Made by a program: the position numbers and the translations under genes
Part shown: positions 31,228 through 38,932 of the stretch, in pieces
Numbering within the stretch: position 1 is the first letter of the stretch
How the letters are laid out: each line of letters begins with the position of its first letter
Assembly (NCBI GenBank): GCA_902522115.1
Contig: CABYUV010000004.1
Coordinates: 1 to 64,000 of the forward strand
Reading direction: 5' to 3'
Origin: an uncultured Pelagibacteraceae bacterium
Lineage (GTDB): Bacteria > Pseudomonadota > Alphaproteobacteria > Pelagibacterales > Pelagibacteraceae
DNA: 64,000 bases
Notes under the pieces: generated by a model
The model's database searches: none
The model's input: only the letters and a program-made list of their open reading frames with translations
What the model was told of the DNA's origin: nothing

Positions 31228-31731
31228 TTATTTTGGAGATTTCTTTACAGATTTAGTTTGTGATCTTCTAAAATTTTTAAGCTTTTTTTGAACATTTAAA
31301 TTATTATTAGCAATTATTGCTGCAGCCAATAAAGCAGCATTAATGGCTCCGTCCTCTCCTATAGCAAGTGTTCCTACAGGTATTCCTTTAGGCATTTGTG
31401 CAATTGATAACAAACTATCTAAGCCTTTAAGTTTTTTACTTTCAATTGGAACACCAAGTACTGGCAAATGTGTAAGTGCTGATATCATACCTGGAAGATG
31501 AGCAGATCCTCCAGCACCTGCAATTATTACTCCTATATGATTTTGCTCAACTTTTGCAGCATATTCATACATTCTTTTAGGAGTTCTGTGAGCAGATATA
31601 ATTTTTGTTTCAAATGAAACTCCAATTTTTTTTAGGGTTTTTTCGGCCAGTTTCATTACTTTATAGTCAGATTGACTTCCCATTATAATTGAAACTTTTA
31701 ATTTACTATTTTTTTTCATGAAAATGATCAA
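31228..31731 (-). CDS. purE: N5-carboxyaminoimidazole ribonucleotide mutase
   Basis: IIMGSQSDYKVM, ISAHRTPKRMYEYA, IAGAGGSAHLPGMISALTHLPVLGVP. Confidence 0.95.
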   Translation of the reverse strand: MIIFMKKNSKLKVSIIMGSQSDYKVMKLAEKTLKKIGVSFETKIISAHRTPKRMYEYAAKVEQNHIGVIIAGAGGSAHLPGMISALTHLPVLGVPIESKKLKGLDSLLSIAQMPKGIPVGTLAIGEDGAINAALLAAAIIANNNLNVQKKLKNFRRSQTKSVKKSPK

Positions 31732-31811: not shown

Positions 31812-32777
31812 ATGAATTATAAAATCGATAATCTGCAATATTGCAATTGGTCTAGAAAAATTTTTGAGATTAATAGATCTGCTGGCTTAGATGCAGTCCA
31901 CGTTACCATTGTTTATCATGAAGATTTTGATGAATTGCAACTCGAAATAAAAAAATGGGAAAAACTGTTTCATGAGAACTCTGATTTAATTTTTCCTGGC
32001 AAAAGTTATAGAGACATTGATAAAGCTAATAAAGAAAACAAAACCGCAATATATTTTGGATTTCAGAATTGTTCACCAATTGAAGATGACATAAAGCTTG
32101 TTGAAAAGGTTCATCAATTAGGATGTAGATTTATGCAACTTACTTATAATAACCAATCTTTGCTAGCAACAGGCTGTTACGAAAAAGAAGATAGTGGAGT
32201 CACAAATTTTGGACGTGAAGTTATAAGAGAAATGAATAGAGTTGGCCTTGTGATCGATATGTCACATTCTGCAGAAAAAAGCACTCTAGATGCAATTGAG
32301 TTAAGTGAAAAACCAATAGTAATTACTCACGCTAATCCTTCTTTTTGGCATCCAGCTAAAAGAAATAAATCTTCAGAATTATTAAAAATTTTAAGTGATA
32401 GTGGTGGTATGTTAGGGCTATCATTATACCCTCATCATTTGAAAGATAATACAAATTGTAGTTTAGATAGTTTTTGTGAAATGGTTGCAAAAACGATTGA
32501 AATTATGGATGTAACAAAAATAGGAATAGGATCTGATCTTTGTTTAGATCATCCAGACACAGTTGTTGAATGGATGAGAAATGGATCTTGGTCTAAAAGT
32601 AAAAATTTTGGTGAAGGCTCAAAAAAAAAACCAGGTTTTCCAAAACAACCCGATTGGTTTCTTGATGCAAGAGGGTTCTCCAATATTGAAAAAGGACTTA
32701 AAAAAGTAGGTTTTTCAGATACCGAGACACATGGAATACTTGGAAATAACTGGTACAATTTTTATAAATCAATTTAA
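31812..32777 (+). CDS. Membrane dipeptidase (peptidase M19)-like, of the type seen in glycine-betaine catabolic loci
   Basis: IDNLQYCNWSRKIFEINRSAGLDAVHVTIVYHEDF, FGFQNCSPIEDD, VIDMSHSAEKSTLDAI, VITHANP, IGIGSDLCLD. Start placed at ATG 31812 rather than the upstream TTG. Confidence 0.8.
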   Translation: MNYKIDNLQYCNWSRKIFEINRSAGLDAVHVTIVYHEDFDELQLEIKKWEKLFHENSDLIFPGKSYRDIDKANKENKTAIYFGFQNCSPIEDDIKLVEKVHQLGCRFMQLTYNNQSLLATGCYEKEDSGVTNFGREVIREMNRVGLVIDMSHSAEKSTLDAIELSEKPIVITHANPSFWHPAKRNKSSELLKILSDSGGMLGLSLYPHHLKDNTNCSLDSFCEMVAKTIEIMDVTKIGIGSDLCLDHPDTVVEWMRNGSWSKSKNFGEGSKKKPGFPKQPDWFLDARGFSNIEKGLKKVGFSDTETHGILGNNWYNFYKSI

Positions 32778-32779
32778 TT

Positions 32780-34441
32780 ATGAAAGTTGAATTAAGAGAC
32801 CCAAACAAGATAATGAAATTATCAAGGCTAGGATCATTTCATCAATCAAAATTATCTTTTTTAAGAAGTTTCCTTAATGAATTTAAAGAATGGGAATATA
32901 AAAGAGATTTATTTAACTTAAATGAAAATGGTATTGGAGAAGCTGTTTATTCATTTAAAAAAAGTAAAAGGGTTTATTCTTTAATTTGTTTTGCAAATGA
33001 GATTAAAGATGAAGAAAGATCAGATAGAGTTATCGCTACAAAATGGGATGCAGCATTCACATTACATGATGGAGTTCCCACAAAAAAAGACATTGAAAGA
33101 TTAAAAAATGAAGTTCCAAAACAAGAGGTTGGCAGACTTTCTTATAAAGAATTAACTTTATCTAGAGCAAACAAATCAGTAAGAATTTATAATCACGTAG
33201 TTGAAAGTTTGAGCAAAGGTCAGCAGCCAGATTTAAACTTATTATCAAAAGTAGGTTATTTATATAGAACTACGGCAGTATATGGCTCGGGTAAATTTGG
33301 TCTTGCAGATCGGTTTAGAATTAAAAATCGTAAAGAAATTAATGGTCCATTTAGATTAGAAATGATGTTGGTTTATTTGGTTAGACAGTTTACTTTTGAT
33401 CAAGTTAATCATGTTGCTTATCATAAAAATCCAAAGACAGCTGTTAAGTTAGATGATAATATTTGTAAAAATTTGGGAATTGGTAATTCCACAGGTCTAG
33501 GTATGGCTCCTTTTATAGTTAATCACCCAACTCTACTTAATAATTGGATTTTAAGTAGAGAAAGGGCGCTTAAAAAAATTAGACAAATTAAAGATGTAAA
33601 AAGTCAAGATAGAAATTTGTTTATAGATTGTGTAAAAAAGTCATTAAGAAATGTTACAAGTTGGAATACTGATAGCGAATATCAACAAAAAAAAATTTCT
33701 TCGTTATTAAAGGATGTTGAAAAATTCTTAAATTTTATAGATAAAGATTTTAATTTTGAGACTGAATATCCTTTTAATAAAATATATCAATGGTTAGAGG
33801 ATAATACTTGCGAGGAATGTATTGAATACATTGTTTCAATAATGATGGAACCATATAACGATATTGTAAATCCTTTAGTAAAAGAAATGAGCTCAGATGA
33901 AGAAAAATATTTTAATATCCCAACATATAGAAAAGTTGAAGAATTACGGAATATCATTGAAGCAAAGTATCCTAATATTCTAGATATTAATTTTGAGGAA
34001 AAAGAAAATAATAAAAACTTTTGGTTTATTTCAAAAAATAAAGAAGAGCCTAGATTAGCTGATCGTTTTGAAGAGCATGGATCTGAATTAGAACAGCCTT
34101 TAGCAATAGCGAGAGACATAAAAAAACTTTATGACAAATTATTAGTCTCAAAAAATAGTTTAACTATTGCAGAGTTTTTAACATCAAATTCTGAATTAAG
34201 ACATGTTGTAAGGAGAGCGTTCATTGTGGAAAAATTTCCTTATTCAGAAATACAAGATAATACAATTGGCAAAGATTTAATACCAATTGATATGCTCAGA
34301 TTGAAATTGTCTTTTTTTGGGGCATTAAAATTTGATCCACGATCTGACAAATGGTTAAGAATTTGTATGTTCCAAGGAGCTCCACTTCCAAATGAGCTAA
34401 AAAATTATGATGAGCATTGGGTATATAAAACCAATATTTAA
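32780..34441 (+). CDS. Conserved-looking protein of unknown function (553 aa)
   Basis: Long ORF starting 2 nt after the M19 stop; no domain recognised by eye. Confidence 0.75.
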   Translation: MKVELRDPNKIMKLSRLGSFHQSKLSFLRSFLNEFKEWEYKRDLFNLNENGIGEAVYSFKKSKRVYSLICFANEIKDEERSDRVIATKWDAAFTLHDGVPTKKDIERLKNEVPKQEVGRLSYKELTLSRANKSVRIYNHVVESLSKGQQPDLNLLSKVGYLYRTTAVYGSGKFGLADRFRIKNRKEINGPFRLEMMLVYLVRQFTFDQVNHVAYHKNPKTAVKLDDNICKNLGIGNSTGLGMAPFIVNHPTLLNNWILSRERALKKIRQIKDVKSQDRNLFIDCVKKSLRNVTSWNTDSEYQQKKISSLLKDVEKFLNFIDKDFNFETEYPFNKIYQWLEDNTCEECIEYIVSIMMEPYNDIVNPLVKEMSSDEEKYFNIPTYRKVEELRNIIEAKYPNILDINFEEKENNKNFWFISKNKEEPRLADRFEEHGSELEQPLAIARDIKKLYDKLLVSKNSLTIAEFLTSNSELRHVVRRAFIVEKFPYSEIQDNTIGKDLIPIDMLRLKLSFFGALKFDPRSDKWLRICMFQGAPLPNELKNYDEHWVYKTNI

Positions 34442-34443
34442 TA

Positions 34444-35052
34444 ATGAAATCACTGAGTGAAATTGAAACTACCGTAAAAAGAGCATCAAAAGCAGTAGGA
34501 TATTCTTGGGGAGTTTCTGAGGAAACAGGAAAAAGTATAAGGTTGTTAGAGCTATTTGGTTTACCGGGTATTAAGCACATTAATGAATATTTTAGTGAAA
34601 AAAATAAAACCAAATTTGAAAATTTAAATTTAATTAGTGAAAATAACTCTTCATCAAAGCCTTATTGTCCAATTAATTTAGGAGTAAGTTTTTTAGATCA
34701 AATAAATGTTTTAGAAAATTTAAAAAAAATTGAATTTAAAAATGTTGCTTATCCAATTATTTTTATTTCTTTCATAAGTCGTTCATCAGAAATTATTGGG
34801 AAAAAAATCTATGTGAAAATAGACGAAAAAAAAATTTTACTAAATTTAAATGTAAATATTAGTTCAAATTTTATCTATCAAGAATTTCCAAAGATAGCGA
34901 ATGCAATTGAGGTTAATCTACTTGAAAATGAAGACAATTTTACAGATGATGAATGGAATAATTTATACAAGTTATCTGAAGATACTTTTGTTGAAGAAAG
35001 TGATAGTTTAAAAGAGGGTGCAGCAGGTGCTGGTTTAACAGATAATGATTGA
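34444..35052 (+). CDS. DUF3726-like protein of unknown function
   Basis: SLSEIETTVKRASKAVGYSWGVSEETGKSIRLLELFGLPG N-terminus and KEGAAGAGLTDND C-terminus; family name from recollection. Confidence 0.65.
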   Translation: MKSLSEIETTVKRASKAVGYSWGVSEETGKSIRLLELFGLPGIKHINEYFSEKNKTKFENLNLISENNSSSKPYCPINLGVSFLDQINVLENLKKIEFKNVAYPIIFISFISRSSEIIGKKIYVKIDEKKILLNLNVNISSNFIYQEFPKIANAIEVNLLENEDNFTDDEWNNLYKLSEDTFVEESDSLKEGAAGAGLTDND

Positions 35053-35212
35053 TGAAAATGAAGATAAAAACCTTAAGGTAGATACCGAAGAATTAAATAA
35101 TATTTGTGACGAATGCAAACAGGAGGACGAAAGTGTTAGTCAAAATTTGATACTTACTGGATTTAAATTATGTAAATCTTGTAGATTATCAAAAACTATT
35201 TTTCCACTTTAA
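35045..35212 (+). CDS. 55-aa CxxC-x18-CxxC zinc-knuckle-like protein
   Basis: Not in the ORF track. ATG overlaps the stop of the DUF3726-like gene; MIDENEDKNLKVDTEELNNICDECKQEDESVSQNLILTGFKLCKSCRLSKTIFPL. Confidence 0.65.
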   Translation: MIDENEDKNLKVDTEELNNICDECKQEDESVSQNLILTGFKLCKSCRLSKTIFPL

Positions 35213-35754
35213 CTAATTTGACTAACAGGTAGCATATTCATTCTGCTCATAACGAATGAAATAGATAAAAAAGCAATAATTAAAAATGATAAAAGTATTA
35301 TTCCAAAGGATTTAAAATTAGATTTTAAACTCAATACTTGTTTAGTTGAAATTATTAAACCTGCAAAAATCCAAAACTGGGTAAGAAAAATTATTGGTAT
35401 CATTAAATCTGGTGTCACAGCAAAAAATCTTAGCAAACCTGGTGCATGCGCAAAACCAACCGCTGTTAATACTTTTTTGAAAGAAACTTTGGTTTGCTTA
35501 TCAGGAAATAATTTTACCCCAATTACAAAAATAAAAATTGCCCATATTAGCCAAGTAACTATTGCAGTTAAACCAGACATCGCGATAGCAGTTTTAATTA
35601 TAGTATTTGCAGCTACTGCTCCAGCGATACCATCCAGTATCATTATAATCCCAGCAAAGTATATTGATGCTTCCCCAAAATTTTTATTATCCGAATAAAG
35701 GGTTTTGTCTAATTTTATTGACTTAAAAATTATATTTAAAAATTCAGCAAACAT
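35209..35754 (-). CDS. Yip1-like multi-pass membrane protein
   Basis: Several hydrophobic helices; VGFAHAPGLLRFFAV segment. Confidence 0.6.
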   Translation of the reverse strand: MFAEFLNIIFKSIKLDKTLYSDNKNFGEASIYFAGIIMILDGIAGAVAANTIIKTAIAMSGLTAIVTWLIWAIFIFVIGVKLFPDKQTKVSFKKVLTAVGFAHAPGLLRFFAVTPDLMIPIIFLTQFWIFAGLIISTKQVLSLKSNFKSFGIILLSFLIIAFLSISFVMSRMNMLPVSQIS

Positions 35755-35908: not shown

Positions 35909-37267
35909 TTAGCCTTTTACAACTTCTCTAGTATTTGCGTTGAAAGACTCTTTGAACGGAATATCCACAACTACAGCATCTACAGGTGTTCCTGGAGTAT
36001 CTGAGTATTTTTCTGGAAGATGAACTTTAAACTTAGTCCCAACTTTATTTTTTGGAAATCCATTAGGGTTTAAAGTTCCATCAAACGGAACGTATCCCAT
36101 AGCAATATTGGTTTTCTTTTCCGGATGCCACCATGGCGAAGTAAGAAATCCAACTGGGTCTCCACCATTTTCTGGTGATACTAGCCAAAAGTCTGGTGCA
36201 TAATCGTCAATTGGTTTACCGCCTAACTCCATTCCAACTAATTGAAGTTTATAGGGTTTTTTTCCAGCCTTTATGTCTGCTCCCATTTTCTCCAAAGCAG
36301 CTTTACCAACATAATCAGCTTTTTTATTCCATTCACCTTTACCAGATAATGAAACTTGATAACCTAAATTACATTGAAAAGGATTATGTTGTTGATCCAT
36401 GTCTTGTCCCCAAGAAAGAATACCTGCTTGTATTCTTCTATGGTGTGCAGGTGCAATAACCATCAATTTATGTTTTTTTCCTGCATCTAATACTGCATTC
36501 CACATATCTTCAGCATATAAAGTTGCATTTCTTAAATAAATCTCATAACCAGCTTCTCCTGAAAAACCAGATTGAGAAATTACACAACTTCTTCCCCCAA
36601 CTGTTGCTTCTGCTAACCCATAGAAAGGCATATTATCAAAATCAACTTGGTCACCACAAAGATCTTGCATTAATGCTTTTGATTTAGGACCTTGAATTTG
36701 TACTGGACATGCATCTATTTCCTCAATTGTACAATTAAATCTTCCATCTGCATTTACACCTTGTAAATACATTCCAATATCAGAATCTGACAATGAAAAC
36801 CAAAATTCATCTTCTGAAATTCTTAAAAGAATTGGATCATTTAAAACTCCACCGTAAGCATTACATAATATTACATATCTTGCTCTCATAGGAGAAATTT
36901 TTGTTGCATCTCTAGTGATAACGTAGTCAGTAAATTTTTCTGCATCTGGACCTTTAACTCTTATTTGTCTTTCAACAGCTACATTCCACATTGTTACGTG
37001 GTTAACGATTGCATCGTACTCAACCATTGCTCCACCATCTTCAGGTTTTACGTAACCTCTTGGGTGATAAATTCGATTGTATACAGTTGCTCTCCAACAA
37101 CCTGCCTGCATTGATAAATGCCAATAAGGTGATTTTCTCACCCTTGTTGAAATTAATAATTCAACTTTAGTTGGCCCACTTTGTCTTAAATTATATGGTA
37201 CTTCTCTGTCTGATTGATCAACAGAGGTAACATGTTGTACTTTAGTATAGTCAAATTCTTTAGACAT
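35909..37267 (-). CDS. GcvT-family THF-dependent methyltransferase, substrate unknown (DmdA-like fold, not canonical DmdA length)
   Basis: 452 aa; RQIRVKGPDAEKFTDYVITRD, VQIQGPKSKALMQDL, QSGFSGEAGYEIYLR, IAPAHHRRIQAGILSWGQDMD; paired with a MetF-like gene. Confidence 0.75.
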   Translation of the reverse strand: MSKEFDYTKVQHVTSVDQSDREVPYNLRQSGPTKVELLISTRVRKSPYWHLSMQAGCWRATVYNRIYHPRGYVKPEDGGAMVEYDAIVNHVTMWNVAVERQIRVKGPDAEKFTDYVITRDATKISPMRARYVILCNAYGGVLNDPILLRISEDEFWFSLSDSDIGMYLQGVNADGRFNCTIEEIDACPVQIQGPKSKALMQDLCGDQVDFDNMPFYGLAEATVGGRSCVISQSGFSGEAGYEIYLRNATLYAEDMWNAVLDAGKKHKLMVIAPAHHRRIQAGILSWGQDMDQQHNPFQCNLGYQVSLSGKGEWNKKADYVGKAALEKMGADIKAGKKPYKLQLVGMELGGKPIDDYAPDFWLVSPENGGDPVGFLTSPWWHPEKKTNIAMGYVPFDGTLNPNGFPKNKVGTKFKVHLPEKYSDTPGTPVDAVVVDIPFKESFNANTREVVKG

Positions 37268-37988
37268 AACTATTCTCCTTCAACCACTTGTTAGTTTCCT
37301 TCAAGCCGCCGAATGTATAAATGTGGAAGTTATCAGTATGCGATTTAACTTTCCCAATTAAATCATTAGGGTCTTTAGGTTTCAATAAATCTAATGCCTT
37401 AGTAAAATTAGATTTAAGAAAGTTAATGGAATTTTTTGCCCCTACAATATTAGCAAACTTAATTAAGCTAGATATTTTTAAAGGTCCAGTAATTCCCACA
37501 TGCACTGGTACGCTTTGTTTAGAAATAAAGTCTATAATAGGCTGAGGATCTAGCAACCATTGAGTTACGATGTAGTCAGCATAAGGCTTTTTATCTATCA
37601 TAGCTTTTTCTAAATCTGAGTCGGATATATCAGGACTCCCCTCGGGATGTCCAGCAATTCCTATTTTCATTTTTTCAAAATAACCTGTCTCTAAAAGTTG
37701 AAATGAACTATCAAATTTACCTGCTGGCTCTCTTCCACCTCCAATAATTAAAGCTTGCTTTACTCCTCCATCTTTGCACCTAGAAATGTAATCTTTTAGT
37801 TCTTTTTCATCATGCATTGATCTAGCAGGGAAATGAGGTACAGGGTTAAATCCTTTTTTTACAAGCTCAACTGCTTTATCAGCAGTCTCTCTGTAATCAC
37901 CTCCAGGTAGCATTGTAATGTATATGTCTGACAATGCTGGGACTGCATCTACCTCAGTTTTAGGTCCTATTTCTAATGAAAAATTCAT
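37260..37988 (-). CDS. Short methylenetetrahydrofolate reductase (MetF)-like protein
   Basis: SLEIGPKTEVDAVPAL, HFPARSMHDEKELKDYI, IIGGGREPAG, IGIAGHPEGSPD, VTQWLLDPQPIIDFI, VHVGITGPLKISSLIKFA; 242 aa, shorter than typical MetF; overlaps the GcvT-like gene. Confidence 0.75.
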   Translation of the reverse strand: MNFSLEIGPKTEVDAVPALSDIYITMLPGGDYRETADKAVELVKKGFNPVPHFPARSMHDEKELKDYISRCKDGGVKQALIIGGGREPAGKFDSSFQLLETGYFEKMKIGIAGHPEGSPDISDSDLEKAMIDKKPYADYIVTQWLLDPQPIIDFISKQSVPVHVGITGPLKISSLIKFANIVGAKNSINFLKSNFTKALDLLKPKDPNDLIGKVKSHTDNFHIYTFGGLKETNKWLKENSYV

Positions 37989-38044
37989 AATGAAATCTTT
38001 ATTTATTTTGAGATATGAGTCTAGAAAATTCGATTGAGACTAAT

Positions 38045-38932
38045 TTACTTTTTTAACTGACCTCTGTGCTTTTGAATTCTTTGTCCGTACTGCTGAGTTA
38101 CCCTATCAAAAATAATCGCTAGAGCTACAATTGCTAAACCATTCATCATTCCAAGTGCTAAGTATTGGTTTGAAATAGCTTGTAAAATTGGCACTCCTAA
38201 ACCTTTTACACCTATCATAGATGCTATTACGACCATAGCTAAAGCCATCATGATTGTCTGATTAATTCCAGCAAAAATAGTTGGTAAAGAAAGTGGAATC
38301 TGAACTGATCTTAATTTTTGCATTGGTGTTGCTCCGAAAGCTTCACTAGCTTCAAGGGTTTCTTTGTCAACTTCACGAATTCCTAGGTTAGTTAATCTGA
38401 CGATTGGAGGTAGAGCATAAATACAAACTGCTAAGAGTCCTGGAACTTTACCAATACCAAGGAGCATAATTATTGGAATTAAATACACAAAGCTTGGAAT
38501 TGTTTGCATCATATCTAAAACTGGTAAAATTGCTTTTTCTGCTCTCGCTGATTTTGACATTAAAACCCCAATTGGAATTCCCACAACAATACAAACTAAA
38601 GTAGAAACAGAAATAATTGCAACTGTAGCCATACAATTTTTCCACATTCCAAAGTAGCCAATTACCAAGAAACAAACCACTGTACCAATTACAAGCTTAA
38701 CACTTCTTGATCCAATCCAAGCCAATATAGCAAACATACCAATTACTAAAGGCCATGGGCTATTTACTAATAATTTTTCTAACCAAATTAAAAAATGTAA
38801 CAGTGGATCAAAAAAACCTTCAATACCATCACCATACGCTCTAGAAAATTCTTTGAAACTAGAGTCAATTCCTTTTTTAAGCTCTCTAAGAGCCGTTCTA
38901 TCCATTACAGGAATTTTATTAAAGAAGTCCAT
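38045..38932 (-). CDS. proW: ProW-type glycine betaine/proline ABC permease
   Basis: EASEAFGATPMQKLRSVQIPLSLPTIFAGINQTIMMALAMVVIASMIGVKGLG EAA loop; QTIPSFVYLIPIIMLLGIGKVPG. Confidence 0.88.
   Translation of the reverse strand: MDFFNKIPVMDRTALRELKKGIDSSFKEFSRAYGDGIEGFFDPLLHFLIWLEKLLVNSPWPLVIGMFAILAWIGSRSVKLVIGTVVCFLVIGYFGMWKNCMATVAIISVSTLVCIVVGIPIGVLMSKSARAEKAILPVLDMMQTIPSFVYLIPIIMLLGIGKVPGLLAVCIYALPPIVRLTNLGIREVDKETLEASEAFGATPMQKLRSVQIPLSLPTIFAGINQTIMMALAMVVIASMIGVKGLGVPILQAISNQYLALGMMNGLAIVALAIIFDRVTQQYGQRIQKHRGQLKK

Follow-up and report, generated by a model that had tools for sequence, protein, structure and literature searches.

What do four adjoining plus-strand genes of a SAR11 bacterium do, and do they do it together? 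The genes were found in a window (the whole stretch of 64,000 nucleotides that was analysed) of a Pelagibacteraceae assembly of 1.18 Mb, 87% complete. The sequence-only reading had described them as a self-contained operon made up of a metallo-dipeptidase of family M19, a 553-aa protein (P553), a DUF3726-like protein and a mini-protein with a zinc knuckle, and had placed all four as partners in the turnover of a small N-acyl, peptidyl or methylated-amine-derived compound. The four frames, their junctions (twice 2 nt, then an overlap of 8 nt) and the minus-strand orientation of both flanking genes were all found as described (Table 1), except that the downstream flanking protein, which had been called Yip1-like, gave no significant match in Pfam. 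All four frames are genuine genes. The first three are kept across Proteobacteria, and the fourth is kept within Pelagibacter with a median dN/dS of about 0.05.

Table 1. Positions of the four genes of the block and of the two flanking genes in the window
Feature	Position	Strand	Remarks
M19-family amidohydrolase, 2i5g subtype	31812..32777	+	ATG start; Pfam PF01244, E 1.4e-68
P553, 553 aa	32780..34441	+	conserved family, without Pfam, NCBIfam or PDB match
DUF3726 protein, 202 aa	34444..35052	+	PF12525, E 2.1e-21
55-aa mini-protein, CxxC-x18-CxxC zinc knuckle	35045..35212	+	restricted to Pelagibacter
purE-like flanking gene	31228..31731	-	identified from sequence, no HMM
181-aa membrane-like protein	35209..35754	-	4 nt shared with the end of the mini-gene

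The comparison of gene neighbourhoods covered 75 alpha-, beta- and gammaproteobacterial loci; in 69 of them the M19 gene was located close to the P553 gene, and in 67 it also had the same orientation. The loci are partly non-independent, with several from one genome or from closely related species; among the loci without M19, some are divergent and some are ended by a contig edge. The DUF3726 gene is usually present, in most loci after that of P553. The expected co-localisation was thus observed, in agreement with the view of the block as a conserved functional unit. In many loci the M19 and P553 genes are separated by a gap of about 1.7-2.2 kb, which is occupied by a BCCT transporter gene. 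Over 81 loci the recurrent neighbours were ALDH (41), Ldh_2 (30), LysR (29), BCCT (19), a glycine-betaine-type ABC permease (13) and RidA (11). The gene order is LysR, ALDH, M19, BCCT, P553 and DUF3726 in gammaproteobacteria, with RidA up- or downstream; LysR, ALDH, M19, (BCCT), P553 and DUF3726 in roseobacters, often followed by Ldh_2; and LysR, ALDH, M19, P553, DUF3726, Ldh and a glycine-betaine-type ABC transporter in rhizobia. Phaeobacter inhibens DSM 17395 carries LysR-ALDH-M19-P553-DUF3726 as PGA1_RS18995-19015. In Phaeobacter porticola and Shinella, the operon includes Ldh together with a BCCT or a glycine-betaine ABC transporter, and adjoins genes for an HTH/GlxA-family regulator and for a tetramer of sarcosine-oxidase/Mgd type, a label under which Mgd and sarcosine oxidase are not distinguished.

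These neighbours (betaine-type transporters, ALDH, Ldh_2 and RidA) agree with the early suspicion of a link to methylated-amine or betaine metabolism. The description as self-contained had to be dropped, since the fuller operons elsewhere carry ALDH, LysR, Ldh_2, RidA and transporter genes together with M19, P553 and DUF3726. The window points the same way, with methylated-amine genes around the block: GcvT-like, MTHFR-like, ProW-like permease, Rieske and dimethylglycine-dehydrogenase-like genes are located downstream. Upstream by about 5-10 kb are soxB (21611) and soxA (23137). The minus strand at 35909-38932 encodes a 452-aa protein resembling GcvT/DmdA, a short one resembling MTHFR and a permease of the ProW type, a trio that possibly forms a THF-linked demethylation unit.

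The M19 protein matches its Pfam family over residues 17-317, and its nearest solved relative is 2i5g (annotated 'amidohydrolase', E 6.7e-58), which we take to be a Pseudomonas protein of the PA5396 type. In renal dipeptidase, the metal ligands are an H-x-D pair, a bridging Glu and two His, in addition to a catalytic Asp. Of these, H152, H173 and D242 were invariant in 70 of 70 M19 homologues, while the N-terminal H-x-D was absent and the bridging-Glu position was occupied by Gln (Q85) in all 70, so that a complete dinuclear metal site was not found in this protein. As judged from the aligned residues, one metal site is lost in the 2i5g-type subtype, and the protein is likely a mononuclear amidohydrolase. 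The loss of H-x-D and of the bridging Glu makes a classical dinuclear dipeptidase unlikely, against the assignment of an ordinary metallo-dipeptidase from which the analysis started. The significant M19 Pfam and renal-dipeptidase matches would still suit a true dipeptidase of D-amino-acid, dehydro or N-acyl dipeptides with accessory neighbours, but both the altered ligands and the betaine transporters in the operons speak against this alternative, which is very highly improbable. A literal peptide-degradation unit was considered and set aside. Instead of peptides, the M19 protein is proposed to hydrolyse an N-methyl intermediate that arises by ring opening, at an amide or N-formyl group.

The DUF3726 protein is a member of its family, with 76 bits against a cutoff of 22.1. 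A gammaproteobacterial homologue matched both DUF3726 (E 5.4e-11) and, over its N-terminal 135 residues, Ldh_2 (E 4.8e-9; 36.2 bits, slightly below the cutoff of 38.8). The direct alignment of DUF3726 with Ldh_2 by hhalign gave a probability of 81% over the N-terminal 59 columns. When the AlphaFold2 model (pLDDT 81) was used for Foldseek, the best matches were mostly Ldh_2 enzymes, with probabilities up to 0.93 at E about 0.06 or worse, the alignment covering only part of the Ldh_2 fold. On these three agreeing lines, DUF3726 is probably a truncated Ldh_2-type (type-2 malate/lactate dehydrogenase) fold. The N-terminal sequence and the fold are common to DUF3726 and the Ldh_2 enzymes (malate/lactate, ureidoglycolate and piperideine-2-carboxylate reductases), but DUF3726 proteins are about 170-255 aa long against about 330, and the protein of the window, with 202 aa, is not a full-length NAD(P)-binding Ldh_2 enzyme. 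Full Ldh_2 genes often come after the DUF3726 genes. The C-terminal tail AGAGLTDND is well conserved and, being modelled as disordered by AlphaFold2, is probably so in the protein, a combination that suggests a docking or active-site tail. We consider the DUF3726 protein as a putative partner subunit of P553. In the literature accessible to the search, no work on DUF3726 was found.

The partners of M19 had been said to have no recognisable function; this holds for P553, and is no longer correct in part for DUF3726, with its look of a truncated Ldh_2-type protein. Neither the single P553 protein nor a family of 31 relatives gave a significant match in Pfam, NCBIfam or PDB. Isolated weak matches of single family members were judged to be due to chance, as was the best PDB match of the family profile, a coiled region of V-ATPase subunit C (E 0.06). 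The AlphaFold2 model, built from a shallow alignment of SAR11 sequences only (mean column identity 96%), reached a mean pLDDT of 47, and Foldseek on this model gave nothing meaningful; no fold is therefore claimed.

P553 was detected in 138 of 197 Pelagibacterales genomes, in 39 of 289 genomes sampled at class level and in 29 of 399 sampled at phylum level, some of the last being outside the class. Plasmid-borne copies of Vibrio, Pseudomonas, Caballeronia and Variovorax are among the matches, and no relatives were found in the viral contigs and phages searched; a viral or mobile origin of the block was considered and set aside. The wide distribution, the very strong conservation in SAR11 and the presence of RidA in gammaproteobacterial and class II operons (see below) could be explained by a metabolite-repair or stress unit, a kind of RidA-like damage control tied to no one carbon source. 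The pathway-type neighbours, the transporters and the LysR regulators favour catabolism instead, and P553 is missing from about 30% of Pelagibacterales and from about 87% of the class sample; we regard such a unit as highly unlikely.

In the alignment of the 31 relatives, about 45 residues are invariant and two classes can be separated. Class I is marked by the motifs SDRVIA, RTTAVYG and NSTGLGMAPF, and class II by GRIIG, MRNTGLDGNGTFG and NGSALGL; the class II proteins are 23-29% identical to the protein of the window. The class II operon consists of IclR, P553-II, a half-Ldh_2-like protein of about 235 aa, M19 and an ABC transporter, in several cases with RidA and GabT/SSADH-type genes, and is carried by S. 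meliloti pSymB, Variovorax, Alloyangia and Neorhizobium. The class II substrate probably differs from that of class I. Conservation of the M19, P553 and DUF3726-type triad in both classes speaks for a unit at the physical or biochemical level. The S. meliloti pSymB operon as a trigonelline locus was ruled out as sufficient, since removal of pSymA abolishes growth on trigonelline (PMC4207669). Several SAR11 copies of P553 contained a single in-frame stop within the part that was matched, which may be the natural end of the frame in the aligned tail or, in some, a real pseudogene. In Pseudomonas sp. MPC6, a conjugative plasmid carries the P553 region beside a second BCCT gene and an oxidoreductase set of Rieske, ALDH and FAD type, as a mobile betaine-degradation island.

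The set of betaine-type transporters, RidA, Ldh_2, ALDH and amidohydrolase, together with the adjacent N-methyl amino acid oxidase, fits the conversion of an N-methylated betaine into an N-methyl amino acid, and a catabolic module of the betaine type is likely. Within this frame, ALDH, amidohydrolase and an imine reductase would by analogy fit a route from an N-methylpyridinium compound to N-methylglutamate. With chances slightly better than even, we interpret the block (M19, P553 and DUF3726) as the SAR11 version of the core of a widespread proteobacterial module for an imported N-methylated betaine of algae, which would most probably be homarine (N-methylpicolinate). As the best single substrate homarine has about an even chance, being preferred from the reported activity of Mgd in homarine catabolism (PMC13390433) and from the fast drawdown of homarine by Ruegeria pomeroyi (PMC12817926). 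The same kind of module might serve another quaternary or N-methylated compound, brought in by BCCT or ProXWV-like systems; examples are carnitine/butyrobetaine, proline betaine, dimethylglycine and other pyridinium compounds. Several neighbours suit this alternative: BCCT and betaine ABC transporters, TauD dioxygenase, acyl-CoA dehydrogenase, MTTB and GcvT/DMGDH-type demethylases near various copies, and the GabT/SSADH-type genes of class II operons. The TauD, MTTB and acyl-CoA neighbours are sporadic, however, whereas LysR-ALDH-M19-P553-DUF3726-Ldh_2 is recurrent in alphaproteobacteria, as is its RidA version in gammaproteobacteria, and the Mgd-like tetramer with its AraC/GlxA regulator alongside suggests that the product is an N-methyl amino acid, so that another substrate for the module as a whole is rather unlikely. 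Since MTTB, an AMP-binding enzyme and TauD are betaine genes located near some P553 loci, the substrates may differ among copies, and from the GabT/SSADH-type genes of class II in Sinorhizobium and others, the core may not be specific to homarine.

For the homarine module, we infer the substrate, all of the activities and the order of the steps, the last from trigonelline degradation, as follows. Homarine would be imported by the BCCT or ProXWV-like transporter, and its N-methylpyridinium ring would be opened at C5-C6 by P553 and DUF3726 to yield an N-formyl semialdehyde. The semialdehyde would be oxidised by the aldehyde dehydrogenase, the N-formyl or amide bond would be cleaved by the mononuclear M19 protein (deformylation), and RidA and Ldh_2 would process the resulting enamine/imine to N-methylglutamate, from which the Mgd/sarcosine-oxidase-type tetramer would take off the methyl group. 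P553 is proposed as the key enzyme, responsible with DUF3726 for ring opening or activation. No classical oxygenase was consistently present in the operons, which speaks against the route, as ring opening would then fall to two proteins without assigned activity. Tentatively, and at somewhat less than an even chance, the pair may represent an unrecognised type of ring-opening enzyme for N-methylpyridinium compounds, composed of a core without assigned fold or cofactor and a truncated Ldh_2-type partner. Most SAR11 would carry it, and the members of a second class, in Rhizobiales, Variovorax and Alloyangia, would act on a different N-compound. Shinella and Sinorhizobium sp. RAC02 each have a purU gene (formyltetrahydrofolate deformylase) within their P553 region (L256:16545-17429, L252:15551-16432), where it would fit formyl release.

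Trigonelline degradation, as encoded by Acinetobacter tgn, involves an N-methylpyridinium betaine, N-formyl intermediates, an ALDH step and a two-component flavin monooxygenase. The first three are in common with the proposed route; to our knowledge, P553, DUF3726 and M19 are not among the tgn genes. The Pseudomonas dimethylglycine (dgc) locus, which presumably holds an M19 protein of the 2i5g subtype, shares this subtype in the catabolism of a methylated glycine, and we know of no P553 or DUF3726 in it. For homarine, a conserved pathway has been reported (Ferrer-Gonzalez et al. 2026, Nat Microbiol 11:1531, cited in PMC13390433). Its operon is reportedly spread over alpha- and gammaproteobacteria from marine and other environments, as is the present module, and a tie to Mgd and N-methylglutamate would be common to both. 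In R. pomeroyi, the AraC-type regulator TmaR adjoins mgdABCD (PMC13390433), an arrangement that the tetramer and HTH/GlxA regulator of P. porticola and Shinella may parallel. The published operon may be the same as the present one; if so, the pathway is already published, and the fold link of DUF3726, the altered metal site of M19, the class II operons and the Pelagibacter mini-gene remain as new points. The name of that operon is reportedly homABCDER; read as a regulator with five other genes, it would agree with a set of LysR and five more. Unlike the presumed hom operon, the SAR11 block has no regulator, transporter or ALDH in cis and carries the mini-gene in addition.

The SAR11 operon is thus without regulator and ALDH. 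In the genome of the window (87% complete), the best relative of the operon ALDH reaches 37%, so that a close orthologue is missing, and no RidA of the operon type was matched; both points weigh against the homarine reading. The single Ldh_2 relative (38%) is encoded on a separate contig, where its neighbours are an ABC-3-type transporter and a Fur-family gene and not a betaine operon. A sister SAR11 family retains ALDH and Ldh_2 beside the block, which indicates that the Pelagibacter arrangement is a reduced one. In SAR11, the nearest ALDH and Ldh_2 relatives are thus encoded outside the operon, elsewhere in the genome. The presence of the block in about 70% of the sampled Pelagibacterales suggests a substrate common in marine dissolved organic nitrogen. 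Two protein families without assignment in public databases gain a candidate link to a betaine pathway, so that cultured roseobacters and Vibrio can be used for a direct test of what they do, and metagenomes can be screened with them as marker genes.

The mini-gene was detected downstream of P553 in 112 loci, in every one of which P553 is at least 68% identical to that of the window, and in none of the loci with a more divergent P553. Being confined to Pelagibacter, its product does not stand as the equal partner that had been proposed. It is a real gene of this genus, the core of the protein having a median dN/dS of 0.053 over 92 distinct sequences, indicating strong purifying selection, and a role as an assembly or metal factor is possible.
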